This document shows, one piece after another, positions 5,368 through 63,746 of a stretch of 64,000 bases of DNA. Origin of the DNA: Terrilactibacillus sp. S3-3 (GTDB taxonomy: Bacteria; Bacillota; Bacilli; Bacillales; Sporolactobacillaceae); contig CP129291.1 of the NCBI GenBank assembly GCA_030437565.1, positions 3,224,001-3,288,000 on the forward strand. The letters run 5' to 3'. Numbering within the stretch: position 1 is the stretch's first letter; every line of letters starts with the position of its first letter. The position numbers and the translations under genes were made by a program. The notes below the pieces were generated by a model. The model worked only from the letters and a program-made list of their open reading frames with translations, was not told the origin of the DNA and did not search any database.

Positions 5368-6055
5368 ACTTTTTCGCCATCCATTCCACAAGGCTAAGGT
5401 GATCGTTATCGCGAATATCGTCAACACTTTGCTTTGCTTATCCAAAATTTTGCCCTCTTTGATCAAGACGACAGTATCGAGCAGCGGTTCGATTTCTTGC
5501 AGTTCATGCGTCGTGATCACCACGGTCTGCTTTTCGAGATCAATAAAAGAAATCAGTCCTTTAATAATGGATTGACGCACCATCGGGTCGAGCCCGGAGA
5601 GCGGTTCATCCATCAGAATATACGGGACATCGCGGGCCAGCGTCAGCACGATTTTCAGCCGGCCGCGATTTCCTTTTGAGAGATGCTTCACCTTCTTTTT
5701 TCGGTCAAGCTTCATAAAGTCCAGTATCTCTTCCGCTCTTTCCCGGTTAAAGTCTTTGAACGTGTCATTATAAAAATCAACCGTTTGCTTGACTGTAAAA
5801 AAGGAATAATAGGCATCGAGTTCCGACAAATAGGATAACTTCGTGCATATCTTCCGATCGGCGATCACACCGTCGACAAGCACCGTTCCTTTTGTCGGGC
5901 GAATCAATCCGGCGATTAATTTCAATGTGACTTGACTTGCCGCTGCCGTTCGAACCAATCAGTCCGACAATCTGGCCAGGTTCAATCGTTAAATTGACAT
6001 TAGTCAGCGCCTTGGTCGTTAAATAACGTTTTGATACATTTTCCAGCTGAATCAT
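5360..6055 (-). CDS. ABC transporter ATPase (first), frameshifted
   Basis: Begins MIQLENVSKRYLTTKALTNV at 6055, overlapping the end of the GntR gene by four bases. Walker A GSNGSGKS is followed by an indel near 5937, after which TLKLIAGLIRPTKG, signature LSKGNRGRLK, Walker B ILMDEPLSGLD and the switch region TTHE follow. The native end appears to be LSLVEWMAKKYD with a stop at 5360-5362, reached after restoring one A near 5430. About 230 residues. The layout resembles YtrB-type ATPases in YtrA-controlled operons. Confidence 0.82.
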
Positions 6056-6435
6056 TTATCCGCCCTCCCCGTTTTTTCAAAAAATTGCTTTAATCCGTCG
6101 ATCATTTCCACTTCCGAATATCCCATCTCTTTCATCTCTTGCACAAATCCGGAAATATGCCGTTCTTTCAATCCTTCTCTCATATTCTGCAAGATCTTCT
6201 GATCGGCGGTAACAAAAGTGCCCTGGCCTCTTTTCTTCTCTACGATCCCGCTCTCTTCCAATTCGCGATAGGTACGCTGGACGGTATTGGGATTGACGCC
6301 CGATTCAATTGCCAGGTCGCGAACCGACGGCAGCTTATCGCCGCTCCCCAGTTCGCCTCTGATAATTTGGTGTTTGATCCGCTCGCTGAGTTGAAGATAA
6401 ATCGGTGTTGCCGGGTTGAATGATTCCGTCATCAC
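6052..6435 (-). CDS. GntR family regulator, YtrA subfamily
   Basis: An intact 127-residue regulator. The winged helix occupies residues 1-75, with YLQLSERIKHQIIRGEL, DKLPSVRDLAIESGVNPNTV and the wing KKRGQGTFV. The short C-terminal part lacks a large effector domain, as is typical of YtrA-type GntR proteins encoded with ABC exporters. It lies inside the operon, overlapping the stop of the first permease and the start of the first ATPase. The dyad at 7326-7365 over the operon promoter is the likely autoregulatory operator. In B. subtilis YtrA responds to cell-wall-active antibiotics; the signal here is unknown. Confidence 0.9.
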   Translation of the reverse strand: MMTESFNPATPIYLQLSERIKHQIIRGELGSGDKLPSVRDLAIESGVNPNTVQRTYRELEESGIVEKKRGQGTFVTADQKILQNMREGLKERHISGFVQEMKEMGYSEVEMIDGLKQFFEKTGRADK

Positions 6436-7201
6436 GACACCTCGATTTTCCGATTGACGATCCAGGCAGAAAGATAAAATAAGATAGCCGCGAGCAGAAA
6501 ATTAAAAACATAATCGCCGATATAGATGCTATACTGCAGTCCCCCTACCCCGTCTTCGGGTAGCCAGTACTTCCATACCGATGGCGGGATCGTCCCCCAG
6601 TTCGTCAGAAAGCTTAAAACACCGGCATTCGCGATCTTTCCTAATAAATAAGGCAGGATGAATAACCCGGCAATGACGATTGCCCACACCCACTTTCCCA
6701 GCCGCGTCTTTACCAGCTGATACAGGCACCAGAAAAACAAATAAACGATACTAATGAAGATCGCAATCAGATAAAGGTGAAAAATCACAAAGAAACCGCT
6801 GCGGTAAAGGTGGACTTCCTCAGTCAAGCGGATAAATTTGTTGAAATTAATGAAATAACCAATCCATGTATAAGCGCAGCTGATGACCATTGAAACGGTC
6901 ATATAGAGAATCCCGCTAACCCATTTAGCAGCAAAAGCGACCAGGCCGGCAGCGGATTGTGCAGCCACAGATGAAGCGTCTTCCTTTCGAGAAATAAATT
7001 CACAATCATATAACCCAAGAGATAAAAAACATGCGCTAATATGGTTAAAAAACCAAAAGCAACGACGACATCCGTACTTCCCTGGCGGATGGCTTGATAC
7101 ACAACAATCGAATAAAGGGAAAGTTGTAAAATCAGAACGCTGAAAAATCCCAGGCTTCCTAAACGCATTTCTTTTTTTACCAACGCGAACCAAGCCTTCA
7201 T
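6432..7201 (-). CDS. ABC-2 type membrane protein (first operon gene), frameshifted
   Basis: First gene of the GntR/ABC operon. From ATG 7201 the product starts MKAWFALVKKEMRLGSLGFF, and after an indel near 6925-6945 continues as AAKWVSGILYMTVSMVISCAY to 6432. It is about 255 residues with six or seven hydrophobic segments, with no Walker motifs. The GntR gene starts at its stop codon. Similar membrane subunits are found in YtrC/YtrD-type operons. The transported substrate is unknown. Confidence 0.78.
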
Positions 7202-26926: not shown

Positions 26927-27125
26927 AAACTTCAATCAGTGGGGAGTTTTCTTCCATACCCCACTGATTGTTAGCTCTTGCCCACAGGACGTGGGTCACA
27001 CAGACGTTGCCACAGGATGTGGCGCCTTTAGTCTGTGTTCCTAAGACCGGGCGTTTACGGGCAGTTTCTCTCACCTATGCTTCTTCGAATTCATTGGAGC
27101 CTTGAGGTGGGAGTCTTACTGCCCG
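26927..27125 (-). mobile_element. IS605-type miniature element (candidate)
   Basis: On the minus strand the right border reads GGGCAGTAAGACTCCCACC...TAGGTGAGAG, matching the left ends of the two full elements here. The other border is a 12-bp hairpin (CAATCAGTGGGG/CCCCACTGATTG) followed by AGTTTCA, similar to the GTAGTTCA right ends. In between are structured repeats CCACAGGACGTGG and CCACAGGATGTGG and no gene. It starts right after the hemQ stop. I infer a palindrome-associated miniature element or orphan guide-RNA scaffold. Confidence 0.4.
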
Positions 27126-40745: not shown

Positions 40746-40782
40746 ACATATTAAACACATGAATTTAATAAGAATAAAATTT

Positions 40783-40888
40783 CTTATCCAGAGAAGCGGA
40801 GGGATCTGGCCCGATGAAGCTTCGGCAACAGGCTTTTATCACAAGTGCACTGTGCCAATTCCAGCGGGCATTTCGTTCGAAAGATAAG
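40783..40888 (+). ncRNA. SAM-I (S-box) riboswitch
   Basis: P1 arms CTTATC and GATAAG enclose the conserved blocks GCGGAGGGATCTGGCCCGAT, CGGCAACAG, GTGCACTGTGCCAATTCC and AGCGGG, as in SAM-I aptamers. SAM binding is expected to favour the downstream terminator, so genes are on when methionine/SAM is low. Controls dehydrogenase copy 2. Confidence 0.93.
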
Positions 40889-40898
40889 GAAGACAGCA

Positions 40899-40942
40899 CA
40901 GCCGCTCTTCCATTATCATCGGAAGGGCTTATTTTTTTTTTT
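40899..40942 (+). terminator. riboswitch-controlled terminator
   Basis: AGCCGCTCTTCC pairs imperfectly with GGAAGGGCT, followed by a run of 11 Ts, directly after the SAM-I aptamer. Confidence 0.85.
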
Positions 40943-41013
40943 ATCTAAAACACTGAAGGCCCCTGCCCCAAAGGCCTGGCCTGCTGATTATCTAATAAAA
41001 GGAGCTGAACAGA

Positions 41014-42121
41014 ATGGGCTATTCATCACCGACCATTATCAAACCCGGACCCCAATCGTATATCAATGAAACGGATGCCTTGCAGTGGCTGCCTGCATTA
41101 TTAAAAGAACGCCGTCTCAAAAAGCTGCTTATTGTGCACGGCAGAAAAGCGCTGCAGGCGGCCGCTCCCTATCTGCCCGATCTCGCTGATTTTGACACTA
41201 CCTTTGAAACGTATCATGGCGAGTGCTCGGAAAACGAAATTGCACGTATTCACTTGCTTGCTGAAAGTCTGTCCGCCGATGCGATCATCGCGATCGGCGG
41301 CGGAAAAGTCATCGATATTGTGAAGGCGGCAGCGTGGAAAACCCATATACCGGAAATTCTGATTCCGACCGTTCCGTCAAACTGCGCTGCATTCGCTCCT
41401 TTGAGCATTATCTACGACGACTATGGCACATGGCAAAAGGGACAGGTTTTCACAAGAACATCCCATCTTGTCCTGATCGAACCTCGCATTCTATTAAACG
41501 CGCCGGTCAAATACTTAATTGCCGGCATCGGCGATACGATTGCGAAATGGTACGAGTGCCGGATCGGCCTGGAAGCGGTTAAAGACGACTCTATCGCATT
41601 GGCATTCAGCCATGAATCTGCGCGTCTCTGCCGCAACAGGTTGATCGAAAATGGCGAACAGGCCCTGCACGATGCCAAGCACGGTCTTTTGTCCACAGCC
41701 TTTTTAAATGTTGTTGATGCGATCTTTTTTTGCGGCCGGATTAGTCGGCGGGCTGGGAAGCCGGCATGCCAGAGCCGTCGGCGGCCATGCTTTTTACAAT
41801 TCGGCGACCATTATCCCGGAAACCCACTCCGTTCCCCACGGTACACAGGTCGCTTACGGCCTTCTGCTCCAGCTTGCTTTGGAAAATAAAACAGGCGACA
41901 TTAAAGCGCTGCTGCCTTTTTACAAGGCGATCGGCCTGCCGGTATCCGTTCATGATCTGAATCTCGACGATCTTGATTCATTGGAAAAGGTCGCGATAAA
42001 AATGGCCGAACCCGTTTCCCTGATTCATGGCTTGCCGCGCCAAGTCACTGCTTTGGACATCCTTGAAGCGGTCCGCACCGTCCGTGAGATGGCGCAAACC
42101 GTTCTCACTGCACAAGAATAG
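41014..42121 (+). CDS. iron-containing ADH-family dehydrogenase (YbdH/HcxA-like), copy 2, frameshifted
   Basis: Paralogue of the gene at 38.5 kb, nearly superimposable along its length: IAIGGGKVIDIVKAAAW, IPTVPSNCAAFAPLS, AGIGDTIAKWYECRIGLEAV; a break in the T-run near 41730 is followed by AGLVGGLGSRHARAVGGHAFYN and SVPHGTQVAYGLLLQLALENK with the metal His residues. About 368 residues. AAAAGGAG precedes the ATG. Its SAM riboswitch ties it to methionine metabolism, which supports reduction of 2-oxo-4-methylthiobutyrate or a similar 2-oxoacid. Confidence 0.87.
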
Positions 42122-47604: not shown

Positions 47605-47702
47605 GATTCCACCCCCTTTTTATGTTGAATTATAGCATAAATGTTTGAAAATGTTATATAAAAACACTTTTTAACATTTTTAATCATTATACGTTTTATC
47701 TA

Positions 47703-48340
47703 CAAGATGTCTGCTTTTTTATACAAGTCGCGTTGGGTCCGGGGGGTTGGCACGACTCTTTTTACAACTTTCGAACGTTTATTTACAACTTTTCGCGGTT
47801 TATATACAAGAATTCTGCTTTTTTATACAAGTCGAGCTGGGCACGGGGGTTTCGCACGACCCTTTATACAACTTTCGAACGTTTATTTACAACTTTTCGC
47901 GGTTTATATACGACTTTTCCTGTTTTATTTACAAGATCTCCGCTTTTTTATACAAGTCGCGTCGGGCACGGGGTTGGGCCCGTCCCTTTATACAACTTTT
48001 GAACGTTTATTTACAACTTTTCAAAATTTACATACAACTTTTCTCCGTTTGTTTACAAGATCTCTGCTTTTTTTATACAAGTCGGACTGGGCACGGGGTT
48101 TCGCACGACTCTTTGAACAACTTTCGAACGTTTATTTACAACTTTTCGCGGTTTATATACGACTTTTCCTGTTTTATTTACAAGATCTCCGCTTTTTTAT
48201 ACAAGTCGAGCCGGGCACGGGGTTGGGCCCGTCCCTTTATACAACTTTTGAACGTTTATTTACAACTTTTCAAAATTTACATACAACTTTTCGAGGTTTA
48301 TTAACGATTTCCCCTCGTTTATTTACGAGAGCTTCGTCCG
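47703..48340. repeat. 21-bp-based tandem array D (family 2)
   Basis: Five higher-order units of about 124 bp, each built of five 21-bp pieces plus one of about 19. Typical pieces are ACAACTTTCGAACGTTTATT, ACAACTTTTCGCGGTTTAT and ACAAGATCTCCGC plus T/A run; one G+C-rich piece (ACAAGTCG...GGGCACGGG) recurs per unit. Several pieces carry the dyad TTCGAA. It lies between the metQ 3' end and the ycnK upstream region. Open low-complexity frames are not considered genes. Confidence 0.88.
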
Positions 48341-48491: not shown

Positions 48492-49330
48492 TTATTTAAA
48501 GTAAGACGGTAATTTATATCCCTTAAATTCAGCATGTGATTTGATTGCCTTTTGAAAAGCTGCCGAATGGTAGGCCGCGATAATATCTTTGACATATTTG
48601 GAATTCTTTTTCGATTGATCGACAGCGACAACATTGATAAATGGCGACGTCATGTTTTCAAGCTTCAATGCATCCGTCAGCTTCTTCCCGCTCGAGACGG
48701 CGAAAGTTCCCTTGTATGGTCGCGTAATCGACGTCTTTCAATGCCCGCGGTCCCTGAGCTGAATCCATCGGCACGATTTTAACCTTTTTAGGATTGGATA
48801 CAATCGTATTCACCGTCGTATCGATCGGGTCGACCCCTTTTTTCAGCTTAACCCAGCCAATGTCCTGCAGGATGCCGAGTGCCCTTCCCATGTTGATCGG
48901 ATCGTTCGGAACAGCGACGGTCGTGCCGCTTTTCACTCCGCTTAAGCTGTGATGTTTATTTGAATACAATCCCATCGGCGGCGTCGGCACTTGGACAACG
49001 CCGACATTGTGGATTTTCTCCTTTTTATTAATGGACTGCAGAAAAAGGCTGTGCTGAAAAACATTTGCATCCAGTTGTCCGTTGGAAACCGCGACATTAG
49101 GCTGAATACCATCGGTGAAATTCTTGTAAATAATTTTATAGCCTTTCTTTTTCAACTGAGGGGCAATGCCAAGCTTAAACTCGTCGATATAAGGGCCGGG
49201 ATTGAACCCGATCCGGAGTACTTTTTTTGCTGCCGCCGCTTGCTGATCCCGAGTTTTTATTCCCGCAGGCGCCAAGCAATAACGCAAAACTAAGTAAAAC
49301 CGCTAAACTTACCCATACGCTCTTTTTCAT
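48492..49330 (-). CDS. MetQ-like substrate-binding lipoprotein 1, frameshifted
   Basis: NlpA family binding protein. Lipoprotein signal MKKSVWVSLAVLLSFALLLGAC; after an indel near 49225 LRIGFNPGPYIDEFKLGIAPQLKKKGY, NGQLDANVFQHSLFLQSINK, TPPMGLYSNKHHSLSGVKSGTTVAVPND, and after an indel near 48705 the end SGKKLTDALKLENM...GYKLPSYFK. About 279 residues. Last gene of the S-box operon starting at 55.2 kb. Family members bind methionine or related sulfur amino acids. Confidence 0.87.
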
Positions 49331-49406
49331 TCTGATCTCCTTTGGTATCCACTTATTAAACGACATCTCTTTCAAATTCATGGTTTAAAATTTACGGGAA
49401 GGCTTG

Positions 49407-50252
49407 TTATTTATTATTGATAATTTCGGCCACAGGCTTGTCCACCGGCACTTTTGTCCCGCCGAATTCCTTTTTAACATAGTCCTGTATTTCTTTTGAA
49501 TGATATAAGTCCTTTAATTTTAATAATGCCTTATCATGGCTGCGGCTTTTTTTGGTCACCAGCAGGTTTATATTCGCGATTGTATCCTGATTCAGTTTTT
49601 CATGGTAAATGGAGTCTTTAATTGAATTCAGGCCGGCATCCAAAGCGACGCTGTTGCCGATCAGAGCGATCGTAACATCTGGGAGAGCCCGCGCCGTCAT
49701 TCTTCCGTCCATCTCAACGAATTTCAATTTCTTCGGATTGGAAGCAATCCCGTCGATACCGGTGAAGGAATTGAAACCCGGTTTGAGCTCGATCAAGCCT
49801 GCCGACCGCAAGACACGCAAGGCGCGGGCTGTGTTTGCCGCATCGTTCGGTATGGCGACTTTCGCCCCGTCAGGAATCGCCCTAAGGCTTTTGACTTTTT
49901 TCGAATAAATGCCCATTGGTTCCAAATAAGTTGTCGCGATCGCCGCCAGCGGGTTACCTTTTCTCTTATTGTAATCCTGGAAATAGGACAAAGACTGGAA
50001 CGCATTGACATCAATGAGGCCGTCGGTTGTCGCATCGTTGATTTGTGTCCCGTCGCTGAACTCTTTAACAACAATATTTAAACCCGCTTTTTTGGCCGCT
50101 TTGGACTTCGCAATAAACTTCCATACTTGAGCGTCCGATCCGCTTGATCCGACAACGATTTTTTGTGTTTTTTTACCGCCTGCCGAAGAGCCGCAAGCGG
50201 CCAGTACACCAAGTGACAATATTAAAATAAATAAAACAAAACGTTTTTTCAT
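49407..50252 (-). CDS. MetQ-like substrate-binding lipoprotein 2
   Basis: Intact, 281 residues. Signal MKKRFVLFILILSLGVLAAC with lipobox LAAC, then IVVGSSGSDAQVWKFIAKSKAAKKAGLN, DGLIDVNAFQSLSYFQDYNK, LEPMGIYSKKVKSLRAIPDGAKVAIPNDAANTARAL and FVEMDGRMTARALPDVTIALIGN. The extracytoplasmic receptor of a methionine-type ABC importer whose ATPase and permease are not in the window. 77 bases upstream of receptor 1 and just after an M20 gene. Confidence 0.92.
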   Translation of the reverse strand: MKKRFVLFILILSLGVLAACGSSAGGKKTQKIVVGSSGSDAQVWKFIAKSKAAKKAGLNIVVKEFSDGTQINDATTDGLIDVNAFQSLSYFQDYNKRKGNPLAAIATTYLEPMGIYSKKVKSLRAIPDGAKVAIPNDAANTARALRVLRSAGLIELKPGFNSFTGIDGIASNPKKLKFVEMDGRMTARALPDVTIALIGNSVALDAGLNSIKDSIYHEKLNQDTIANINLLVTKKSRSHDKALLKLKDLYHSKEIQDYVKKEFGGTKVPVDKPVAEIINNK

Positions 50253-50334
50253 CCCCAGGTCTCCTCATCTATCGAAAAGTGATAGCCTTTTTATCTGTCC
50301 TAAAACCTGAAGGCGGGAGCCAATCCCGCCCTGC

Positions 50335-51502
50335 TTATGATTCTTTCAACTTTTTCAGTGCCTCAATGGCCAAGGTAGAGAAAAACCGGGCGCTCGGCAA
50401 TAACGCCCTTTCATCCAGTGTAAAAGCCGGATGGTGCCATTCCTCCGTACCCGAAGTCCCCATGAACACAAAGGTGCCGGGAATGACTTTCTGATACTCC
50501 GCAAAGTCTTCGCCCGCGGCCGATGGCACCGGATCGACGACATTGAAACCTAATCTCTCCGCTACGCCCGCGGTCCATTCGGTCAGCCGCCGATCGTTTT
50601 GAACCGGCGGCGGTCCGGGCGTCAGCCGCAGCGTCGCGGCCGCGCCTAAAGCCTGCGCCACACCGTCAATCACCCGGCGGATGGCGCCTGGAATACCGGC
50701 CCGCACATTTTCCTGAAAAGTGCGCACCGTTCCTTCCAATACCGCTTTTCCAGGAATGACATTCCATGTATTCCCCGCCTCTAAATGCGTGACGCTGATC
50801 ACCGCGTTATCCAGAGGACTGATGTTTCGGCTCACAATCGTTTGGAGAGCTGTAATAACATGTGCCGAGACGACGAGTGGATCAATGCCCTTTTCCGGTG
50901 CCGCGGCATGCGTGCCCACGCCTTCAATTCGATTTCGAACCGATCCACTCCGGCCATCAGCGGGCCGTCGGTGATCCCAATCGTGCCGACCGGCAAATCC
51001 GGCTTGTTATGCATGCCGAAAATCGCCTGCACATCGTCAAGTGCCCCCGTTTCGAGTGTTCTTTCCGCCCCGCCGCCGTTTTCTTCCGAAGGCTGAAAAA
51101 CAATCTTCACCGTTCCCTCAATGGCATCCTCCTGCTCTTTTAACAAACGGGCGGCGCCCAAAATGGCCGCTGTATGGAAGTCATGGCCGCAGGCATGCAT
51201 TTTGCCCGGCACTTTTGAAGCAAAAGGCAGATGTGTTTCTTCCAGAATCGGCAGTGCATCAATATCGGCCCGAAGCGCCACTGTCGGGCCCTCTTTTTTC
51301 CCTCTTATTTCCGCAAGCACGCCTGTTTTTAATGGAAAATCCAACACATTGATCCCGGCATCAGCGAGCCAGCGGCGAATAGCCTTTGTGGTTTCAAATT
51401 CTTCATTGGATAGTTCCGGATGTTCATGCAGCGGCGGCGGCGGTAATCAATCAATTCACTTTCCAGCTGCTTCGCTTCCACATCTTTAGCGATTTTGGCC
51501 AT
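50335..51502 (-). CDS. M20 family amidohydrolase 1, frameshifted
   Basis: Metal-dependent N-acyl amino acid hydrolase, YxeP/SndB-like. Order: MAKIAKDVEAKQLESELIDYRR, after an indel near 51440 LHEHPELSNEEFETTKAIR, then RADIDALPILEETHLPFASKVPGKMHACGHDFHTA with the metal ligands, FQPSEENGGGAE (catalytic Glu), GTHAAAPEKGIDPLVVSAHV in the lid domain, AGEDFAEYQKVIPGTFVFMG with the last ligand. A second break lies near 50870. About 389 residues. AAGGAGGAG precedes ATG 51502. In the S-box operon it could deacylate imported N-acyl sulfur amino acids. Confidence 0.9.
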
Positions 51503-51548
51503 TTTTTTCTCCTCCTTCTTTATTTGCCTCCCCAAAATTTCAAGCCGC

Positions 51549-52884
51549 TTATTTTGTCTCAAGCTTGGCAAAGCGGTTCACAGGTTTCTTAAGCCCCAAA
51601 TGGTCGCGGAGCGTACTGCCCTCATATTCACGGCGGAAAAGACCGCGATCTTGCAAAATCGGCACCACTTTGTCCACAAAATTTTCCAAGTCCCTCGGAT
51701 AAGACGGTGCGACAAGCATGAAACCGTCGGCCGCCTTTTCATCGAACCATTTTTCCAACTTATCGGCTATTTTTTTTCCGGTGTTCCCACCCAGTCGCGG
51801 CGGGCACTGCCTTCCATTAAGCCGTACAGTTCACGCAAAGTCGGATTTTTCTCCTCAATCCAGCCTCTCATTCTTTCAAAATGGCTCTGAATGCCGTTTT
51901 CCGGCGGAAACTCAACTTCCCTTGCCGGCGTATCCAAGCTGTACTTGCTGAAATCGACTTTGCCCAAATAGCCGGATAAGAAGCGCAGCCCTTGTTCAGG
52001 AATGAGCAAATCTTGCAGCTCTTGATATTTTTCTTCCGCTTCTTCCTCCGTATCGCCGATGATCGGCGAAATGCCCTGAAGAATGTGCAGTTCGTCTTCA
52101 GTGCGCCCGTAGTCGGGCAGCTTACTTTTTAAACTTTTATAAAAATCCTTTGCCAAATCAAAATCTTTGACATGAGAAAAAACGACTTCGGCCGTGCGCG
52201 CAGCCAAATACTGGCCCGGCTCGGAGGCACCGGCTTCAACGATGACCGGCTGGCCCTGTTCGGAGCGGGCAATGTTCAGCGGCCCGCTGACGGAGAAAAA
52301 GCGGCCTTTGTAATTCAAGCGATGAACCTTGTCCGGATCATAAAACCGGCCGTTCTCTTTATCGAACACAAAAGCATCGTCTTCCCACGAATCCCACAGC
52401 CCTTTAACCACATCGATGAATTCTTCGGCCCGTCATAGCGCTTATCATGCTCCAAATGTTCGTCTTTGCTGAAATTCTGTGCCGTCTGGCCGGTTGCATC
52501 GCCGGTCGTGACAAGGTTCCATCCGGCTCTCCCGTGGCTGACATGATCGAGGGACAAAAATTGACGTGCCAAGTTGTATGGCTCGTTATACGTTGTCGAT
52601 GCCGTGCCGACCACGCCGATTTTTGATGTTGCTCCGGCAATCGCGCTTTGCAAAATGACCGGATCAAATCGGTTGAGAATGTTGGGATGCGAGTCCTCGT
52701 TAATTGCCAGGCTGTCCGGCATAAACACGATATCGAACTTGCCCCGCTCAGCAATTTGTGCCAGATTCCGATAAAAATCAATATCAATGCTGGCGCCCGG
52801 ATCGGCGTCGGGCCGCCGCCACGAGCCAAGATGAATCCCCGTGCCAACCAGATATGCAGACAACTTGATTTGTCTTTTTCCCAT
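51549..52884 (-). CDS. NtaA/SnaA/DszA-type flavin monooxygenase, frameshifted
   Basis: FMNH2-dependent two-component monooxygenase of about 445 residues. KRQIKLSAYLVGTGIHLGSWRRPDADP, IAERGKFDIVFMPDSLA, GTASTTYNEPYNLARQFLSLDHVSHGRAGWNLVTT and HDKRYD; after an indel near 52415 VKGLWDSWEDDAFVFDKENG and GQPVIVEAGASEPGQYLAARTAEVVF; after an indel near 51770 DGFMLVAPSYPRDLENFVDKVVPILQDRGLFR. Similar to B. subtilis CmoJ (YtnJ), which acts in S-alkylcysteine salvage. GGGAGG precedes ATG 52884. Confidence 0.9.
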
Positions 52885-52913
52885 CTTCAAACCTCCCATA
52901 AATCTATTTATTT

Positions 52914-53763
52914 TTATAAGTGTGTTTTATATGTCGACGACAATTCTTTCAAAGAAATAAACGTCGGAATATAATTGCCTTTATAGGTTTGGCGAATAAA
53001 GTCGGCTACTTGCTTGGATTGATAGATTTTCACCAATTTTTTTAATTCCGGCCGGTTTTTGTCTTTAGCGCGAGCAGCAATGATATTGATATAAGGTTTG
53101 GCCGTTTTTTACTCTCATGGTATAAAGCGTCTTTCAGCCTGAGTCCCGCGACAAGCGCCGTGCCGTTATTAATCACCGATGCGGTGACATCGTCCATGAC
53201 CCTCGGCGTATTGGCGCCATCGACCGGGATAATTTGCAAATGCTTCGGATTCTCTTTGATTTTGTCCTTGCCGCCGTCTCCGTTAAAATGATCAACCAGT
53301 TTAATCAAACCAGCCGATTGCAAAAGAACTAGCGAGCGTCCCCAGTTGGATTGATCATTAGGAACAGCGATTTTGGCGCCATCGGGGATATCTTTAATAC
53401 TTTTGATCTTTTTCGAATAAAGGCCGAGCGGAGCGATGATCGTCGTGCCGATGGGAACAATTTTTGTATGATGCTTTTCATTAAATTGCTCAAGATAAGC
53501 AATATGCTGAAAGGCATTGGCATCGATGTCGCCTTCGTCCAGCGGCGTGTTAGGATCAATGTTTGCAGAAAAATTGACCACTTTCACCGTCAGCCCCTTT
53601 TTTTTAGCAATTTTCGCAATATAGTTCCAAGTTTTGAGTTCCGAACTGCGTACCCCCACTTTGATCACTTTTGTTTTTTTTTGCTTGTGCTGCTGTGTCC
53701 GCATCCTGCGCTAATCACCAATAGCAGCAGGATAAATCCGATGATGATTTTTTTTTTCTTCAA
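52914..53763 (-). CDS. MetQ-like substrate-binding lipoprotein 3, frameshifted
   Basis: TTG start region KKKKIIIGFILLLLVISAGC (lipobox SAGC). An indel in the A-run near 53680 precedes TKVIKVGVRSSELKTWNYIAKIAKKKGL, GDIDANAFQHIAYLEQFNEK, IIAPLGLYSKKIKSIKDIPDGAKIAVPND; another near 53112 precedes KPYINIIAARAKDKNRPELKKLVKIYQSKQVADFI. About 280 residues. Second gene of the S-box operon, after the MsnO8-type monooxygenase. Confidence 0.86.
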
Positions 53764-53966
53764 CAAATGATCTCTCCACACTTTCTGTATCGTTTATCTC
53801 TATTTTTAAGCCGAGCCTCTACTAAATCCGCAGCCTGCCGGAAACTTCAATCCAAGCCCGCAAACCGACTGATAAGCCCTGATTGTGACATCTAAAATGC
53901 TTTAAGCATCTTCTAATAGCGCCAGCTGGCATGATTCTGCCATTCTGTCTTTTCCTGTTCGCAAAT

Positions 53967-54990
53967 TTACTGAGCCGCAAGCTGTTTATCATTTAACAGA
54001 GCCTCATTTAAAAGTTTGTAAGTGTGCAGCCGTTTTTGAAAGTCGTCAACGGCCGCAATGATCACGAACTCATCCACTTGATACTTTTTCTGCAAGGCCG
54101 TCAGTCGTGCTTTCAAAGTATTTTTCGAACCATAGATAATGTTGGCCTCCTCAATCTCCAACGTTACCTTTTCTGCGGCATGTTTCTGAAAATCCAGCGC
54201 TTTTTCCAGACTGGTGATCGTCAATGTCTTGCCCGATTCAAAATGGATTCTGATCACCTTATTGTCGGCGGCGAGCTGCCTGGCTTCCTCATCGGAATCA
54301 GCGGCAATCACAGACAGGGCCAGCGCCGCTTTCGGTTCCGCTTGTTCTCCCGGCTGGAATTTTTCCCGGTAGGCGGACAGTGCCTCTTCCATGGCCGCTT
54401 CGTCGCCGTTAAGAAATTGCGCAAAAACATACGGAACCGAAACCCGCGGCCAGCGTTGCACTTTGCACACTTGTGCCAAGCGAATAAATATCCGCCGTCT
54501 GCCGCAGTTCGGGAATCGTTTTCAAACCGTAAAACGGATGCCCTTCCGGAAGCCGATTATGCAGGAACTGAATCAATTCCTGCAATTTGTCCGAAAGCGG
54601 CGGTTCATTATCAACGTTATCCTGCTGCAGGGCCCTTGTTGCCAAAGGAAGGCCGCCGGGCGACCGGCCGATGCCAAGGTCGACCCGCCCGGGTGCCAAA
54701 GAAGCGAGGACATTAAAATTCTCGGCGACTTTATACGGGCTGTAATGCTGAAGCATGACACCGCCCGATCCTATTCGGATCCGGCCGGTTTTCGCTAATA
54801 AATGCGAAACAAGCACTTCCGGAGAGGCTCCGACCACTTTATCCGAATCATGGTGTTCAGCGACCCAAAAACGATGATACCCCCACTTTTCCGCTGCCTG
54901 TGCCAATTCAATCGTGTGTTGAAAAGCCTCCTCCGCGTTTTTTTTTTCGCCGATCGGCGTTTGATCGAGAATACTTAATTTGAGTGTCAT
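53967..54990 (-). CDS. MsnO8-type LLM flavin oxidoreductase, frameshifted
   Basis: Luciferase-like monooxygenase of about 340 residues. Typical start TLKLSILDQTPIGEKKNAEEAF, then WGYHRFWVAEHHDSDKVVGASPEVLVSHLLAKTGRIRIGSGGVMLQHYSPYKVAENF, ASLAPGRVDLGIGRSPGG and, after an indel near 54440, VFAQFLNGDEAAMEEALSAY. Similar to B. subtilis CmoO (YtmO). First gene after the SAM riboswitch at 55.2 kb; probably opens a C-S bond or acts with the NtaA-type partner. GGGAGG-like sequence precedes ATG 54990. Confidence 0.9.
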
Positions 54991-55071
54991 TCTTTTTCCC
55001 TCCCAATTTCCAGATTTCGTTTTTTTGTTTTTACAATTCCTCCGGCTTCGCTGAGTGCGCCATTTACTGTT

Positions 55072-55102
55072 AAAAAAGGCCCTCCTTTTGACAAGAAGAG
55101 CC
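55072..55102 (-). terminator. riboswitch-controlled terminator
   Basis: On the minus strand GGCTCTTCTTG...AAAGGAGGGCC forms a hairpin followed by TTTTTT, between the SAM-I aptamer and the monooxygenase gene. Confidence 0.8.
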
Positions 55103-55140
55103 ATTCCCGAAAAATTCTGCTTATTCCAGCGAATGTTTTT

Positions 55141-55245
55141 CTCATCTTTCGAACACTTGTGGAGTGTCCGCTGGATTTGGCACAGTGCTCCTCGAGCCTT
55201 TTGCCGAGATGTCATCGGGCCAGTCCCTCAATCTCTCTTGATAAG
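55141..55245 (-). ncRNA. SAM-I (S-box) riboswitch
   Basis: On the minus strand CTTATC...GATGAG (P1) encloses GAGGGACTGGCCCGATGA, TCGGCAAAAGG, GCACTGTGCCAAATCCAGC, the SAM-I core. It heads a six-gene operon (53.9 down to 48.5 kb). Confidence 0.92.
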
Positions 55246-55349
55246 AATGTCGGTATTAAATTGATTAATTCATATAAAAATACTAAGGTTTAAGATTGAT
55301 TTAAATTTTATTTCTTTATCGCTGAGATGTCAAGGTATTTTTCATGAAC

Positions 55350-56182
55350 TTATTTCAAATCGTCCGGAATGACCCAATAATGGTTGTGATTATGTTCGGA
55401 AATATAATTTTTGAATGTTTTTGATTGGTAAGCAGACACAATGGCTTTTACCCACTTTTTATCGCGATTCTTCTTGTCAACGGCAACCGTAATTTCCAGG
55501 TCCTTGACCAATGTCTCAGAAAGCAGGGCCTTTTCCGGATCAATATGCGCCGCATAGACAATGCTTCCCGGCAGTACGCCAAAATCGACATCCGATAGTG
55601 CGCGCGGGATTTGCGCGGAGTCCATCTGGATAATCGTCAAATGGCGCGGGTTCGACTCAATATCGTCTTTCGTCGCCAGAATCGGGTTAACGCCTTTTTT
55701 TAGCGTGATCCAGCCTGCTTTTTGCAGTAAATGATAGGCGCGGGCGGCATTGGACGGATCCTGAGGAATCGCGATTTTGGCGCCGTTTTGGATTTGTTTG
55801 ATACTCTCATGTTTATTCGAGAAGATACCGGCGCGGACAGAAGGAATGTGCAGCACCGGAACCAAATCGGCCTTTTTCTCTTTATTAAATGTTCTGATAT
55901 ACGCCGTATGCTGATCAACATTGAAATCATGCTTCCTTCCGTTAAGGCGACATCCGCCTGAAGCAGGTTGGAAAAGTTGATCAGCTTTACTGTATATCCC
56001 TTTTTTTCAAGAATAGGTTTGACACCCGTTTTAAATAATTCACTGTAAGGCCCGGGCGACGTGCCGATTCGCAATACTTTTTTTTTGTCCGTGCTGCCGG
56101 ACTGACCGCAGGCCGACAAGCTAAAGATAAATAAACTTGCTAAAAGAATGGATGAGGTGATTTTCGTCAATTTTTTTGTCAT
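55350..56182 (-). CDS. MetQ-like substrate-binding lipoprotein 4, frameshifted
   Basis: Signal MTKKLTKITSSILLASLFIFSLSAC (lipobox LSAC), KVLRIGTSPGPYSELFKTGVKPILEKKGY, an indel near 55930, then DLVPVLHIPSVRAGIFSNKHESIKQIQNGAKIAIPQDPSNAARAYHLL and MDSAQIPRALSDVDFGVLPGS. About 277 residues. Closest to receptor 1 in its GPY start. Second gene behind the SAM riboswitch at 57.6 kb. Confidence 0.88.
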
Positions 56183-56274
56183 AATTTTCTCCTAGTTATT
56201 TATGTTCTTTCTGTGATGATTAAATCGGGTCCGACAAAGGGCGACCGGCTGATTGCTTCACCCCGTGCGGGCAA

Positions 56275-57460
56275 TCAGTGCGGCGCTGCCTCTAGGCTCA
56301 CCTGCTCCAAGGCTTTTTTCGCCAATAGGCTGAAAAACTTCGAAGCCGGCAAAAGGGCTTTTTCATCAACCGTAAATTTCGGATGGTGGTGATTAAAAGA
56401 ATGACCGGTGCCGATATTGACAAATGCCCCAGGAATTTTTTGCTGGTAATAGGCGAAATCTTCTCCTCCCAATTTTGGCTCAAGCCGTTTGATCCGATAG
56501 CCGCTTTCTTCGGCTACCGCTGCGGCAAGAGCTGCCCAGTGTTCATCATTGTTAGTTGCCGGCGGGCCCGGCTCCCAATGGAACGCCGCATGAATGCCGA
56601 GCCCCCGGCTGATCCCCTCAACGATCAGCTTGATCTTTTCGGGTACGGCTTTTCTTGTCTCCTCGCTTAATGTGCGAACAGTCCCCTGCAAGTAGGATTT
56701 TTCAGGAATGACATTCCAAGTATTGCCGCTTGTCAGCTGAGTCACGCTAAGTAAAACATGATCCAGCGGGCTGGTATCCCGGCTGACAAGCGTTTGCAAA
56801 ACGGTAATAAGATGAGCGGCGCATACAACCGGATCACGGCCTTTTTCAGGCACGGCAGCATGGGTCGCTTGACCGGAAAGGGTAATTTCGAAACGATCGA
56901 CTGCGGCCGTCAAAGCGCCGGTTCGTGTCCCCAAGTTCACCAACTTCAAGATCAGGCGTATTATGCAGACCGAAGATCGCCCGAACACCGTCAAGGCCGC
57001 CGCTGGCAATCACGGCCTCAGCGCCGTGTCCCGATTCTTCCGCCGGCTGGAAGATGATGCGGACAGTACCCGGCAATTCCCGCGCATGCTGTTTCAGTAA
57101 ATACGCGGCTCCCAAAATCACGGCAGCATGAAAATCGTGGCCGCAGGCGTGCATCTTTCCCGGTACGGACGAACGGTATGACAGGCCTGTTTCTTCCAGG
57201 ATTGGCAATGCATCGATATCCGCACGAATCGCGACAACCGGCCCTGCAGGATCACCGGAAATCTCGGCAATCAGACCCGTTTTAAGCGGAACGTCAAGAA
57301 TGCGGATGCCAGCCTCAAGAAGTCTTTTTTTTCAGTTCTGCCGTAGTTTGCGTCTCCTCATAGGACAGTTCGGGGTATTTATGAAAATGGCGGCGAACAG
57401 CGGTCAATTCATCCTCAAGATGCCGGAGATGTCATCCAATGTTTTTTCTGGCAAGTGCAT
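56275..57460 (-). CDS. M20 family amidohydrolase 2, frameshifted
   Basis: Paralogue of the enzyme at 50.3 kb. After an early indel near 57430: HLEDELTAVRRHFHKYPELSYEETQTT; after a T-run near 57330: LEAGIRILDVPLKTGLIAEIS; RADIDALPILEETGLSYRSSVPGKMHACGHDFHAA with metal ligands; IIFQPAEESGHGAE; an indel near 56930; ATHAAVPEKGRDPVVCAAHL and GGEDFAYYQQKIPGAFVNIGTG. About 394 residues. AAGAAGGGTGA precedes ATG 57460. First gene of the second S-box operon. Confidence 0.9.
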
Positions 57461-57482
57461 TCACCCTTCTTTCTAAATGGCA

Positions 57483-57512
57483 TAAAAAAAAAGCTCCCGG
57501 AAGCCGGAAGCT
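57483..57512 (-). terminator. riboswitch-controlled terminator
   Basis: On the minus strand AGCTTCCGGCTTCCGGGAGCT is followed by T9, between the aptamer and the amidohydrolase gene. Confidence 0.82.
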
Positions 57513-57546
57513 ATGATGAATCGATAGATAAAGCGGGGGGGTCGAC

Positions 57547-57651
57547 CTTATCTATCGGGATCAAGAATCTTCCCGCTGGAATTAGCACAGTTCCCAGAAG
57601 GGTCTGTTGCTGAGGATTCATCGGGCCAGTCCCTCAACCTCTCATGATAAG
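57547..57651 (-). ncRNA. SAM-I (S-box) riboswitch
   Basis: On the minus strand P1 arms CTTATC and GATAAG enclose GAGGGACTGGCCCGATGAAT, CAGCAACAGACC, GGGAACTGTGCTAATTCCAG and CGGGAAG, a full SAM-I aptamer. Heads the amidohydrolase 2 / receptor 4 operon. Confidence 0.94.
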
Positions 57652-57804
57652 ATATTTCATATTTTTCACAGCTGTATACTATGATTTATATCTAATTTAA
57701 CCATCTCACCTGAATTTGTCAAGCACTAAATCTGTTTTTATGATTCGCCATATACTCGAAACCTTGTATTGGACTAGGTTTGAGAGATTCTCAAAATGGA
57801 CCAC

Positions 57805-58460
57805 CTTGGCGGGTACACGTACAACTTTTCGTCACAAGATTTACGCTTTTTTATACAAGTCGGTACGGGCCCGGGGTTGAGCCCAACTCTTTTAACAACT
57901 TTCGAACGGTTATTTACGACTTTTCGTATTTATTTACAAGATTTACGCTTTTTTTTTTATACAAGTCGGTACGGGCCTGGGGTTGGGCTCGACTCCTTTA
58001 ACAACTTTCGAACGGTTATTTACGACTTTTCGTCATTTATTTACAAGATTTCCGCTTTTTTTTTATACAGGTCGGTACGGGCCTGGGGTTGGGCCCAACT
58101 CTTTTAACAACTTTCGAACGGTTATTTACAACTTCTTGTCGTTTATTTACAAGATTTCTGCTTTTTTATACAAGTCAGGACGGGCCTGGGGTTGGGCCTA
58201 ACTCTTTTAACAACTTTCGAACGGTTATTTACAACTTTTCGTCCTTTATTTACAAGATTTCCGCTTTTTTTATACAAGTCGGGACAGGCCTGGGGTTGGG
58301 CCCAACTCTTTTAACAACTTTCGAACGGTTATTTACGACTTTTCGTCGTTTATTTACAAGATTTCTGCTTTTTTTTATACAAGTCAGGACAAGCCCGGGG
58401 TTTGGCCTAACTCTTTTAACAACTTTCGAACGGTTATTTACAACTTTTCGAGGGTTATTT
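57805..58460. repeat. 21-bp-based tandem array E (family 2)
   Basis: Same family as the array at 47.7 kb. Six higher-order units each contain TTAACAACTTTCGAACGGTT, ATTTACGACTTTTCGTC, TTTACAAGATTTCCGC, a T/A run, ACAAGTCGG and a GGGCCTGGGGTTGGGC piece. TTCGAACG dyads recur. It lies between the M20 peptidase 3' end and the SAM-riboswitch promoter of the next operon. Confidence 0.88.
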
Positions 58461-58529
58461 ACAACTTCCCTTAGTTTAATTTAGTTCGCCTGCCCGCCTC
58501 GCCCGTGAGATGTCCACGAACCCAAATAG

Positions 58530-58632: not shown

Positions 58633-59783
58633 TCAGGAATCTAATAGACACAATTTTTTCAAGACGTTGATCAGCAAATGTGTCCGCGGCACGAGAGACG
58701 GAATAAATAAAAATTCTTTATCGCTGTGCGGATTTCCCCCGGCAGGACCCAGGCCGTCGACCGTTGGCACCCCCGCGGGCCGCGATCAGATTGCCGTCGG
58801 AACGGCCGCCGTCGGCCACAGCCTTCAGATCAATATTCAGCTTGTGCGCCTCGCTTTCAATCAGCGAAACCAGCCTAAAAGAGGCCGCTGTCGGCTCAAG
58901 CGGAGGCCGCTCCATTTCCTTTACTAGAACGGTCCGGGGGAACCTTGGACATCGGCATGGGCGCAGATTGTCTTCATCGCTTCTTCCACCCATTTTTCCT
59001 GCTCTGCAGTACTTATGCGCACATCGATCACGCCCTCGGCTTCCTGAGGAATCGTGTTCGCCGCCGTGCCGCCTTTAATCAGGCCGACATTGACAAAGAT
59101 GCCCTGATCATAATCAGTTAGTGCATGTAATCTCGTAATTTTCATCGCCAAATCCTGGATCGCGTTAATCCCCTTTTGCGGCTCCATCCCCGCGTGTGCC
59201 GCCCGGCCAGATACCCTGATTTTATAGCGTCCGCCGCCCATTCGCGAATGAAAAAAAATGCTGCCCCTCGGCGCCCCCGGGCTCCGTAATCAGTGCAGCC
59301 TTTTTTTTTTCCGCTCGACCGCAATTCGATAATTTCCCGTGAACTGATCGACCCGATTTCTTCATCCGGATTGATGATGATCTCGATTTCTCGCAGGGTC
59401 TGCGAATTTTCAAGCGCCAATGACTTCATGGCGGACAGCAGCATCACTTGGCTCGCTTTCATGTCGAACACACCCGGGCCGTAAGCATAATCTCCCCTAC
59501 TAACAAAAGGGCGCTTTTTAGCCGTTCCATCAGGAAAAACCGTATCCGTATGAACCGTCAGCAGCAACCCTGGATAATGGGCTTCTTTGTGCCTTAAGAT
59601 AACGGTGTTCCCGTAGGCCGGATGAAAGCAGACAGTCGGCACAAAGCCGATTTCCTGATAGGCTGCCGTTAAGATCCCGCTTACTTTGTTCACTCCGGCC
59701 ACATTCATTGATCCGCTGTCAATGTTCACAAGCCTTTCCAGCAGCTCAAGCATCGCCGGCAATTGCATAACCCTATCATTCAT
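58633..59783 (-). CDS. M20 family peptidase, CPG2/ArgE-like, frameshifted
   Basis: Zinc peptidase of about 383 residues. MNDRVMQLPAMLELLERLVNIDSGS; LLTVHTDTVFPDGTAKKRPF (His, Asp); YGPGVFDMKAS (bridging Asp); IIINPDEEIGSISSREII (catalytic Glu pair); after indels near 59310 and 59235, AAHAGMEPQKGINAIQDLAMKI and VNVGLIKGGTAANTIPQEAEGVIDVRIS; after indels near 58935 and 58775 the last ligand GNPHSDKEF. GGAAGTGAG precedes ATG 59783. Glutamate-carboxypeptidase branch, distinct from the two M20D enzymes; likely last gene of the ssu-like operon. Confidence 0.87.
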
Positions 59784-59867
59784 GATCTCACTTCCGATCA
59801 GCTCATTCTTAAACATTATTAAATAAAAATATAAAGCTGTCCGGGCGATCGCAGCCGAACACCCTTT

Positions 59868-60824
59868 TTAAAACTTAGATGTTTTTGAAATATATCGGCT
59901 GATATCGTAGCGCTCGTTTATTAGCTTAAAGCGACTCAACTCGTTGACATTATCTTGCTGATCCTTGATCATGCCCTTAAAGAAATCGGACACGCCGGAC
60001 AACCTATTATCAAAAGTCGACAGCCATACCAAGTGTGCGATATATTTTTTTCCGTCAGCAATGTCGCTGTTCCGTGGGGATCCGCCGAAACAGTGCCGTC
60101 TATTTTTGCGATCTTTTTCATGATTAAAGTAAAAGCCTGTATTTTTTTTTATAGACATCTGCCCGCGCCACATAGACATCGCGATTGCTCGTAAAAAGTG
60201 AATGGACATCAAGTTTTCTGAAACCGGTATTCAGCGCTTTGCTTAAATAAGGTTCGCCGACAACTAAAGCGTTGATTGATCCGTCCTTTAATTTTTCCAG
60301 CCCTTGTTCGGGCGACACGTAGACGGAGCGAATCGCCCGTAAAGTCAGGTGAGTTTTTTCCAGACTTTGTGCGAGCAAAAAATGCTTGTTAGACAGCTTT
60401 TCATAGCCGACTTTTTTTTTTTTTAAATCCGCCACACTGTGAATAAGCGATGGTTTAGGGACCACGATCCCGTGAGCATTTGGATTGGGCGGCTCGGCGC
60501 CCAGATAAATGATCTTAGGATCTTCCTTATGCTGGAAAATGGGGACGGTATCGCCCACACAGGCAAAATCGATTTTCTTTTGTTCATGGCCGCATAAATC
60601 GCACTGTCATCCGGATATTTTATCCATTTTAGCGTTGTATGCTGCGAATCCAGAACTTTTTTCCAGTTTCCCTCTTCTTTCACGAGTGTCATAAGGCTGT
60701 CTTGCTCATAGCCGATTCTGATGACTTTTTGCTGTGATTTGCTGCTTAAGCCGGCCAACACCATGATGATAACAAACAGCAGGAAAAAGATTGCTGTGAA
60801 CGCTATTTTTTGCCTCTTTTTCAC
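59868..60824 (-). CDS. SsuA/TauA-like substrate-binding protein 1, frameshifted
   Basis: N-terminal membrane anchor or uncleaved signal KIAFTAIFFLLFVIIMVLAG without a lipobox Cys. Then VIRIGYEQDSLMTLVKEEGNW, after an indel near 60590 IDFACVGDTVPIFQHKEDPKIIYLGAEP, VADLKKKKVGYEK, SPEQGLEKLKDGSINALVVGEPY; indels near 60150 and 60050 precede LSTFDNRLSGVSDFFKGMI and the end ISRYISKTSKF. The SsuA-type periplasmic-binding fold for sulfonates or similar. Follows the permease gene, a second receptor for one transporter. GTG start. Confidence 0.8.
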
Positions 60825-60854
60825 TTATATGACCCCATCCTTCTCACTGCTCTC

Positions 60855-61635
60855 TTATCTGTTTGACAGTCCTTTTTTCCAGCCCGTGAGCCTTGATTCA
60901 ATGATCGACAGAATATAATTAATCGCCAGGCCAAGAAAAAAAAGCCAAAATGACGATGCCGCCATACATACTCGGTATATGGAACGTTTGCTGAGCCGTC
61001 AGCACAAAAATCCCCAGTCCGGAACTTGCACCAATCATTTCCGCCGCAACTAAGGCTGTGATCGAATAAGCACCGCCCAACCGAACCCCCGTCAGAATCC
61101 TTGGCGTTGCCGCCGGGAGTACAACTTTTCTAAAAATATAGCCCTGGGAAGCTCCCATGGATTTCGCGGAATGAATCAGTATTTTTTCAACATTTTTGAC
61201 ACCGCTGATCGTATTGAGCAAGATCGGCCAAAATGCCGACCAGAAAATGATCGCATCTTTCGAAAGCTCGCCGATGCCAAAGAAAAGAATAAAAACCGGG
61301 AACAAGGCAAACGATGACATCTGCCGGAAAAATTGCAGCACCGGATCGACAACCGTTTCAAATTTTTTGAACCATCCAAGTGTGACTCCAAGCAGGATAC
61401 CGGCGATAATAGCTACAATGAAACCTGTTAGTGAACGCTTTATGCTGCTGATCAAGTTCACCCATATATCGCCTGTTGCAAAAAAATCATAGATCGCCAG
61501 CGCCACTTGGACCGGCGAGCTTAAATAAGCATTGTTGACGATGTTAAAATGAGAAATAATTTCCCAAATAACGAGAAATAAAATCGAACCGATGGTTTTA
61601 CTGAAAACCGTGGATAAAGGCTTGTATACTTTCAT
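60855..61635 (-). CDS. ssuC: SsuC/TauC-like ABC permease, frameshifted near end
   Basis: Six-segment BPD permease of about 260 residues: KTIGSILFLVIWEIISHFNIVN, INLISSIKRSL-like VNLISSIKRSLTGFIVAIIAG, ALFPVFILFFGIGELSKDAIIFWSAFWPILLNT, then the EAA motif SAKSMGASQGYIFRKVVLPAATPRILTGVRLGGAYSI. One extra base in the T-run near 60940; corrected end AINYILSIIESRLTGWKKGLSNR. AAGGAG precedes the ATG. Confidence 0.9.
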
Positions 61636-61659
61636 TCAGGACTGGCTCCTTCTCATTTA

Positions 61660-62459
61660 CTATTGCAGTGCGTGCGCGACTTCATCCTTAATGATATTCC
61701 ATAAATATTTCCGCAAGTCGGCAAACTCTTCGGAATTCCGAATATCGACCGTCCGATTCCTTGGAAGCGTCATATCGACAATCTCTTTTACTTTTCCCGG
61801 CCGGCGAGTCATCACCGCGACCCGATCGGCGAGAAAAATCGCTTCATCAATTGAGTGTGTGATAAAGACAATCGTTTTTTTTTTTTTTTATTTAAATCCC
61901 AAATTTTCAGCAGTTCAAGCTGCAAGATTTCTCTTGTCTGCTGCGCATCAAGCGCGGCAAAGGGTTCGTCCATCAGCAGAATATCGGGATTGTACGCCAA
62001 AGCGCGGGCAATCGCCACTCTTTGCCGCATCCCGCCCGACAATTCATGCGGATAGCGATGCAAAAACGGCTTCAGGCCGACAAGCGTTAAATTTTTTGTG
62101 GCGATCTCCCTTCTCTCTTTTTTCTTAACTCCCCGGATTTCGAGTCCCGCTTCGACATTGGCCAATACCGTTCTCCAAGGAAAAAGAGCATATCCCTGGA
62201 AAACGACGCCGATATTTTTATTCACACCGTGCAGCGGCACACCGTCGACCGTGATTTCTCCATCCGTTTGCCGGTCTAGCCCGGCCAATATATTTAGAAA
62301 AGTTGACTTGCCGCAGCCGCTTGGCCCCAGTATGGTCAAAAATTCGCCTTCATTTATGCTGAGATTAAAATCATTGAGAACCGTTAATGTTTCATTTTCC
62401 CCATTTTCATTTCTAACCGTATATTGCCTTTTTAAATTTGCGATTATTTTTTCCGTCAT
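61660..62459 (-). CDS. ssuB: SsuB/TauB-like ABC ATPase, frameshifted
   Basis: MTEKIIANLKRQYTVRNENG, Walker A LGPSGCGKSTFLN, Q-loop VFQGYALFPWRTV, signature LSGGMRQRVAIARALAY, Walker B ILLMDEPFAALD. A T13-14 run near 61880 shifts the frame before FITHSIDEAIFLADRVAVMTRRPGKV; the native end is ...IKDEVAHALQ at 61660. About 266 residues. In the raw sequence the upstream receptor runs into this gene without a stop; I infer a native ATGA overlap. Confidence 0.92.
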
Positions 62460-63521
62460 TTTTTTATCCCCATAGTTGTAAGTGATGCTCTGACTTTTGG
62501 CGTTTGGATTATATTCGTTGGTCGCAATATCCGCTGCTTTGACTTTTCCTTTAGGAATCTGTTTAGCCGCCACCAGTGTATCAATCCAATATTGCAGAGG
62601 TTTTTTCTCAATCACCAAATCTTTCACATAGGCATAGCGCTCAACCTGGCTGACGTTCATTTTCAGCCGTTTGGCAATATACTCTCTGGATTGCTTGGGA
62701 TGTGCATTCACCCAGTTGGCCGCTTTCGCAATAATGCCGACAAATTCTTTCACTTGTTTAGGGTGCGCGCGCAGGAATTTGCCGTTCACAGTATAAGGCT
62801 GCATCCCGCTCAATCCGTGGTCAATATCCCAGTCACTGAACAGGCTGACCAGATTCTTATTTTTTTGAGCAATCCCTGATTGCGGCGGGTGAATGATCGC
62901 CAAGTCAATTCGTTTTTTGATCGAGCGCCTGCTCCAATTGCTCATTCGGCATCGCAATCCATTTTATTTTGGAAGGATCGACGCCGTGTTCACGCAAATA
63001 CTTTTTCGTCACATATTCGGCGCAGGCACCGAATCCGTTCATGCCAATCGTTTTTCCGACTAAATCTTTTAAATGCTTAATCCCTGAGTCTTTACGGACA
63101 AAATACTTCATGTGCGGAGCCTGAGGCAATGTTTCATTACCGGCGGAGATGATTTTTTCATCGGCGCCTCCCGCTACAGCTGAAATCGTCAAAGAGGCCA
63201 TTCTTGTTCCAAAATCAATGTCGCCGGTCCCAACCAATGGGATGACCTGGTTGGCGTCAACCTTGCCAATATACTTCGGCTTGATATCGGAGTGTTTAAA
63301 ATAACCCAGATCATCTGCTAAATAGACCAGACCAGATCGAATGTCGGATTATCCGGATATTTAAAATAGACAACTTTGCCTTTGCCGGAAGAATCATTTT
63401 TATCTTTCTCCCCTGAGGTTTGGCCAGAGCAGGCGGTAAACAAGAGCGAAAATACCAGAATAATAGATAAGATCAACGGAAGCTTAAAAAAAGAATAAAA
63501 TGGCTTATTAAAAATCTTCAT
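62456..63521 (-). CDS. ssuA: SsuA/TauA-like substrate-binding lipoprotein 2, frameshifted
   Basis: Signal MKIFNKPFYSFFKLPLILSIILVFSLLFTAC. After a 5-base direct duplication near 63325 that breaks the frame: VYLADDLGYFKHSDIKPKYIGKV, IDFGTRMASLTISAVAGGADEKII, VRKDSGIKHLKDLVGKTIGMNGFGACAEYVTKKYL, and after an indel near 62915 RIDLAIIHPPQSGIAQK, LRAHPKQVKEFVGIIAKAANWVNAHPKQSREYIAKRL. About 355 residues. First gene of the operon. Binds a sulfonate or a heterocyclic precursor; substrate not determinable. Confidence 0.87.
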
Positions 63522-63746
63522 GACATTCCTTGTTTTCCTTTCATTTTCATTTTGGTTAAATAAATCCATAGCAAGAGAGAAAACTTGGCAAAACCAGCCC
63601 CAACCCATCTGCATTTGCCTGTTTTAAAATATAAAAAATCGATAATTTTCGGTTAACAGCACACCCGAATCACCCTCTCAAAAAGATTGCTTGCCAGGCT
63701 AAAACATAGTAATCTTATGTAATTACTAATTGTTAGGATTAGATTA

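Follow-up and report, generated by a model that had tools for sequence, protein, structure and literature searches.

Organization of the island

The 64 000-nucleotide stretch of the Terrilactibacillus sp. S3-3 genome analyzed here (contig CP129291.1, positions 3,224,001–3,288,000; hereafter the window) contains, at window positions 57653–48492 on the minus strand, an island of two operons that we read as a probable scavenging regulon for thioether amino acids. Each operon is headed by an S-adenosylmethionine (SAM)-I riboswitch (S-box): the first runs S-box 1, M20D1 and MetQ1, and the second, of six genes, runs S-box 2, LLM (MsnO8), MetQ2, NtaA, M20D2, MetQ3 and MetQ4. The right edge of the window is followed, after 132 bp, by a third S-box operon, metN-metI, approximately 6.5 kb from the island. 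The gene families, assigned by NCBIfam and Pfam profiles, and the other features are as follows (window positions unless a prefix is given; L118 is a locus carrying the operon of relatives described below).

57545–57653, minus: SAM-I riboswitch (S-box) 1, at the head of M20D1-MetQ1; RF00162, 87.8 bits
57492–57512, minus: terminator-like hairpin in the expression platform of S-box 1; 9-bp stem, then T8
56275–57460, minus: M20D amidohydrolase 1, ScmP/YxeP-like, frameshifted; TIGR01891 in both pieces; 50% identity to the M20D of a Bacillus yxe/scm operon
55350–56182, minus: MetQ1, divergent MetQ-family lipoprotein, frameshifted; PF03180; no equivalent of NmMetQ N238 in the alignment
55139–55247, minus: SAM-I riboswitch (S-box) 2, at the head of the six-gene operon; RF00162, 81.8 bits
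55078–55102, minus: terminator-like hairpin of S-box 2; 10-bp stem, then T6
53967–54990, minus: LLM-class flavin monooxygenase of the MsnO8 family, frameshifted; TIGR03558, 252 bits on the N-terminal piece; 46% overall identity to the LLM of the L118 operon
52914–53766, minus: MetQ2, operon clade B receptor, frameshifted; 64% identity (N-terminal piece) to MetQB of L118; tree support 100/98
51549–52884, minus: NtaA/DmoA-family flavin monooxygenase, frameshifted; TIGR03860; 67% identity to L118; clade support 100/99
50335–51502, minus: M20D amidohydrolase 2, ScmP/YxeP-like, frameshifted; nearest solved structure YxeP (1ysj), 250 bits; 59% identity to the Bacillus yxe/scm-operon M20D
49407–50252, minus: MetQ3, intact open reading frame, clade C receptor, a type shared with Bacillus xiamenensis; 66–68% identity; tree support 100/100
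48492–49330, minus: MetQ4, frameshifted; PF03180; 49% identity to a gene of the family relative G020
G000:C1:3288132–3288245, plus, outside the window: SAM-I riboswitch (S-box) 3, ahead of metN-metI; RF00162, 78.7 bits
L035:4342–5374, plus: metN, with NIL domain; PF09383, PF00005
L035:5364–6016, plus: metI; PF00528

All three S-boxes score far above the Rfam gathering score of RF00162 (44.4 bits), and a terminator-like hairpin with a T-run was found downstream of each. At the level of sequence the three leaders are thus confirmed as SAM-I riboswitches with intrinsic terminators, for which binding of SAM and SAM-dependent termination are predicted. An initial annotation of this DNA had described two S-box operons under SAM control, encoding four MetQ-like receptors, an NtaA-type and an MsnO8-type monooxygenase and two M20D amidohydrolases, and the riboswitch scores and the matches to PF03180, TIGR03860, TIGR03558 and TIGR01891 bear out this description.

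The whole genome contains 20 S-boxes, four of which fall inside 23.5 kb; random placement matched this clustering in 0.4% of simulations (a post hoc test). Other S-boxes precede metE, metK and genes of methionine and cysteine synthesis, as well as genes for proteins like PAPS reductase, sulfate-binding protein, an SsuD-type LLM and acyl-CoA dehydrogenase; several of these targets were named by eye from partial sequence. Because S-boxes also head these other sulfur genes, SAM appears to be a broad sulfur signal in this genome, and SAM control over a cysteine-yielding salvage pathway would be coherent with such a role. A further S-box lies ahead of an iron-containing alcohol dehydrogenase gene (window 40781–42121), and a tandem S-box pair precedes a short gene of unknown function (G000:C1:2083586–2083899; L010, L019).

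The NtaA-type monooxygenase and a conserved Bacillales operon

In the NtaA tree, the island enzyme lies inside a clade linked to MetNI (100/99), whose sister group is CmoJ/YtnJ with its relatives (93/94); the island enzyme does not fall within the latter group. It is also apart from the enzymes of the yxe/scm operons, and membership of the YxeK/ScmK clade is therefore rejected. The best solved match of the island enzyme is YtnJ, ahead of DszA, DmoA and EDTA monooxygenase. Two further NtaA-family monooxygenases are encoded in the genome (G000:C1:2049463–2050716 and 3217919–3219188), neither of them in the clade of the island enzyme.

An order-wide search recovered the clade at 57–68% identity in other families, whereas the genomes sampled from the organism's own family gave no close NtaA relative. 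In those other families the enzyme belongs to an operon of the form MetQA-MetN-MetI-MetQB-NtaA, to which an LLM, a GNAT, an M20D, and a glutaredoxin or FMN reductase are added in various combinations. Scanning of named genomes yielded 80 loci, and counting was restricted to 43 of them, those with an NtaA that shares 59% identity or more with the enzyme of Gracilibacillus halotolerans. MetQ is near NtaA in all 43, with two or more copies in 39; metN and metI are each present in 41, GNAT in 26, LLM in 25 and M20D in 17. The genome studied here also encodes an ortholog of the operon GNAT (G000:C1:273.9–274.4 kb; E 2.6e-54).

An S-box lies upstream on the same strand in 11 of the 43 loci, mostly with an unbroken gene chain leading from it into the operon. 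SAM control of NtaA-MetNI loci is thus recurrent, not universal, and it is not special to this genome, which corrects the initial annotation on this point. Comparison of seven loci without an S-box against all of Rfam gave only one T-box, several kilobases off the operon. In the Bacillus pumilus group, a LysR-type gene lies ahead of the operon (L184, Bacillus xiamenensis, about 5828–6712), and its copy in L127 shares 46% identity with a gene that adjoins a cmo-like cluster in L132; a B. pumilus paper that mentions a CymR regulon contains nothing on the operon. Lysinibacillus and Psychrobacillus (L160, L162, L164–L167 and others) have an acyl-CoA-dehydrogenase-like gene after NtaA.

The neighbouring MetNI pair

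The pair next to the island combines a MetN carrying a NIL domain with a MetI, as expected of a MetNIQ importer, and no metQ follows metI. Two more metNI sets, each accompanied by its own metQ, turned up in a genome search at 2074 kb and 436 kb. A tree of concatenated MetN and MetI joins the neighbouring pair to the MetNI of the operon seen in relatives (98/94), whereas the 2074-kb and 436-kb sets group with copies from the organism's own family of genomes. Full-length MetN identities to the operon copies are 56% for the neighbouring MetN and 52% for the 2074-kb MetN, and the kinship is drawn from the tree, not from these values. The initial annotation was literally correct that the window contains neither metN nor metI, but its suggestion that the four receptors depend on a remote transporter is rejected, because metNI adjoins the island. 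The simplest reading of this arrangement is that the four receptors would all serve the one neighbouring MetNI.

The interval between the island and metNI (window 58718–63614) contains an NMT1/THI5-type ATP-binding cassette (ABC) transporter, comprising two receptor-like genes, a permease and an ATPase, together with an M20 peptidase; this transporter cluster has no S-box of its own.

The MetQ receptors

The four MetQ/NlpA-family lipoproteins of the island were placed in a MetQ tree. MetQ2 groups with operon receptor B and MetQ3 with the receptor of the operon variant found in the Bacillus pumilus group, while MetQ1 and MetQ4 form a divergent pair. No close relative of MetQ1 was found among 397 genomes. 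Relatives of MetQ4 at 38–49% identity are widespread, and many of those examined adjoin MetNI; one MetQ4-like gene, in L231 of the family relative G020, has immediately upstream of it a gene that by eye resembles the iron-containing alcohol dehydrogenase gene of the window.

In NmMetQ, R156, N213 and N238 hold the methionine backbone, and Y81, F98, H100 and Y103 hold its thioether (PMC6739813). Alignment to NmMetQ indicates that all four island receptors retain the equivalent of R156, and that none of them keeps the full set of these seven contacts. The Y81 equivalent is absent from all four and that of N213 from three, H100 is missing in MetQ3, and MetQ1 lacks the equivalents of both N238 and F98. 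The altered pockets suggest that the ligands may be thioether amino acids but not free methionine, although pocket residues do not name a ligand.

Other features of the window

Related tandem-repeat arrays with units of 104–125 bp flank the island on both sides (window 47695–48302 and 57834–58464), and their core, TTTACAACTTTTCG, recurs in the genome at 361, 2795, 3338 and 3422 kb. A Bacillaceae-1 RNA (79 bits) is located at window 26981–27047.

Proposed pathway

In Bacillus subtilis, the salvage of S-alkylcysteine starts with N-acetylation; CmoO then carries out an oxidation and CmoJ a cleavage, both acting on N-acetyl-S-alkylcysteine, and a deacetylation follows (PMC10863075). ScmP (YxeP), YhaA and YtnL are N-acetylcysteine deacetylases (PMC12757645). 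The island and its partners encode the same types of enzyme, and we therefore propose the same chemistry here. The GNAT ortholog would supply the N-acetyltransferase from outside the island and the two M20Ds are, by sequence, ScmP-like, so that candidates for all parts of an acetylate–oxidize–cleave–deacetylate pathway are present in the genome.

We favour, with a probability of roughly 0.6, a regulon that SAM represses and that scavenges thioether amino acids of the S-substituted cysteine type; its receptor sharing, reaction order and substrates we infer as follows. When SAM is low, the three S-box leaders would read through their terminators. The compounds would then be captured by up to four receptors of differing specificity (MetQ1–4), all of which would pass them on to a single MetNI pump, that of the neighbouring S-box operon. 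The GNAT encoded elsewhere would acetylate the amino group, the MsnO8-type enzyme would oxidize the sulfur in the CmoO-like role that we propose for it as a member of the same broad family, and the NtaA-type enzyme would cleave the C–S bond as CmoJ does. Finally, the M20D enzymes would deacetylate N-acetylcysteine to cysteine.

The initial annotation had likened the island to the yxe and ytm/cmo sets of B. subtilis and had favoured an organosulfur over a plain methionine role, and both views gain support from the placement of NtaA, the YxeP/ScmP-like M20Ds and the recurrence of the same genes, with a GNAT, in the operons of relatives. The ytm/ytn (cmo) cluster (CmoO, CmoJ, an N-acetyltransferase and YtnL) is matched here by an NtaA sister to CmoJ, an MsnO8-type LLM, a ScmP-type deacetylase and the GNAT of this genome and of the relatives' operons. 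It differs in importing its substrates through a polar amino acid (Tcy-type) ABC transporter instead of MetQ and MetNI, whereas the island has S-box control, no GNAT inside it and an NtaA of a separate clade. With the yxe/scm operon, which breaks down S-(2-succino)cysteine, the island shares the logic of acetylation, monooxygenation and M20D deacetylation, and the M20D encoded in the yxe operon of a Bacillus relative shows 50–59% identity to those of the island. In contrast to that operon, the island has an NtaA outside the yxe clade, an extra LLM and no SBP3, permease or HisP-type transporter genes.

Alternative explanations

The receptors and amidohydrolases might instead serve the scavenging of N-acyl- or peptide-linked methionine, MetQ and MetNI importing N-acyl-methionine or methionine dipeptides, the M20Ds freeing methionine and the monooxygenases having a separate function in the same operon. 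The nearest solved relative of the MetQ2-type and MetQ3 receptors is PG110 (1p99), which binds Gly-Met, and the change of N213 to Gly in PG110 is common to MetQ2. Moreover, metQ-hmrB-metNP of Streptococcus pneumoniae couples MetQ with an M20 amidohydrolase (PMC5359408), as M20D1-MetQ1 does. We nevertheless consider this explanation unlikely: it leaves unaccounted for the two monooxygenases and the tie of NtaA to MetNI in 41 of the 43 loci, and for ScmP, the nearest characterized M20D, activity towards N-acetylmethionine is about 100-fold lower than towards N-acetylcysteine (PMC12757645).

Less probable still is that the NtaA-family enzyme scavenges or detoxifies other organosulfur or chelator-like compounds, such as alkyl sulfides or sulfones, while MetNI supplies methionine independently. 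The NtaA/DmoA family is broad, with DszA, DmoA and EDTA monooxygenase also among the matches, and the SsuD-like LLM and acyl-CoA-dehydrogenase-like genes are likewise under S-boxes in this genome. However, the island enzyme is on the CmoJ side of the tree and none of these three is its best solved match, and the linked GNAT and N-acyl deacetylase imply an amino-acid substrate.

Frameshifts break every gene of the island except MetQ3 (49407–50252), but real decay into pseudogenes is very improbable, because metK, an essential gene, metE and other operons elsewhere in the genome are split in the same way, the assembly has a completeness of only 76% (contamination 9%) and the breaks often sit at homopolymers. 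The frameshifts most likely reflect errors of sequencing or assembly.

Several points weigh against the scavenging regulon for S-substituted cysteines that we prefer. Its substrates are putative; the island LLM and CmoO belong to one broad family, within which the LLM may or may not be the CmoO ortholog; and the GNAT gene is outside the island and has no S-box. The two other metNI sets might also serve the receptors, and with most genes frameshifted in the assembly, pocket residues close to the breaks are less certain.

Significance

Parts of this system are already precedented. The met operon of Lactococcus lactis (plpABCD-ydcBC), whose plp products are MetQ-like lipoproteins, also combines several receptor-like genes with one methionine transporter. 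It has four homologous plp genes (PMC7058034), but serves methionine uptake without C–S cleaving enzymes and is controlled by CmhR and a T-box. The S. pneumoniae metQ-hmrB-metNP operon resembles the island in joining MetQ, an M20-family amidohydrolase and MetNI(P), and differs in having a single MetQ, no monooxygenases and regulation by CmhR instead of an S-box. None of the papers searched, a set that most subscription journals lay outside and that is no proof of novelty, links MetNI or MetQ to enzymes of the CmoJ or YxeK type. Tentatively, and with clearly less confidence than in the regulon itself, we suggest that the island may belong to an undescribed, widespread sulfur-salvage system of Bacillales, built from a third clade of CmoJ/YxeK-like C–S monooxygenases, a dedicated MetNI and at least two MetQ paralogs whose pockets are altered; in this organism it would have four receptors, MetQ having been turned into receptors of thioether adducts, and would be almost wholly under SAM riboswitches.

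In many Bacillales such a system would tie MetQ and MetNI, usually annotated as methionine importers, to the oxidative cleavage of C–S bonds in modified cysteines, and many 'methionine ABC transporter' annotations may accordingly name the wrong substrate. It would also offer a testable case of several receptors of unlike specificity working with one pump, and of SAM acting as the sulfur-status signal for a salvage pathway that yields cysteine.

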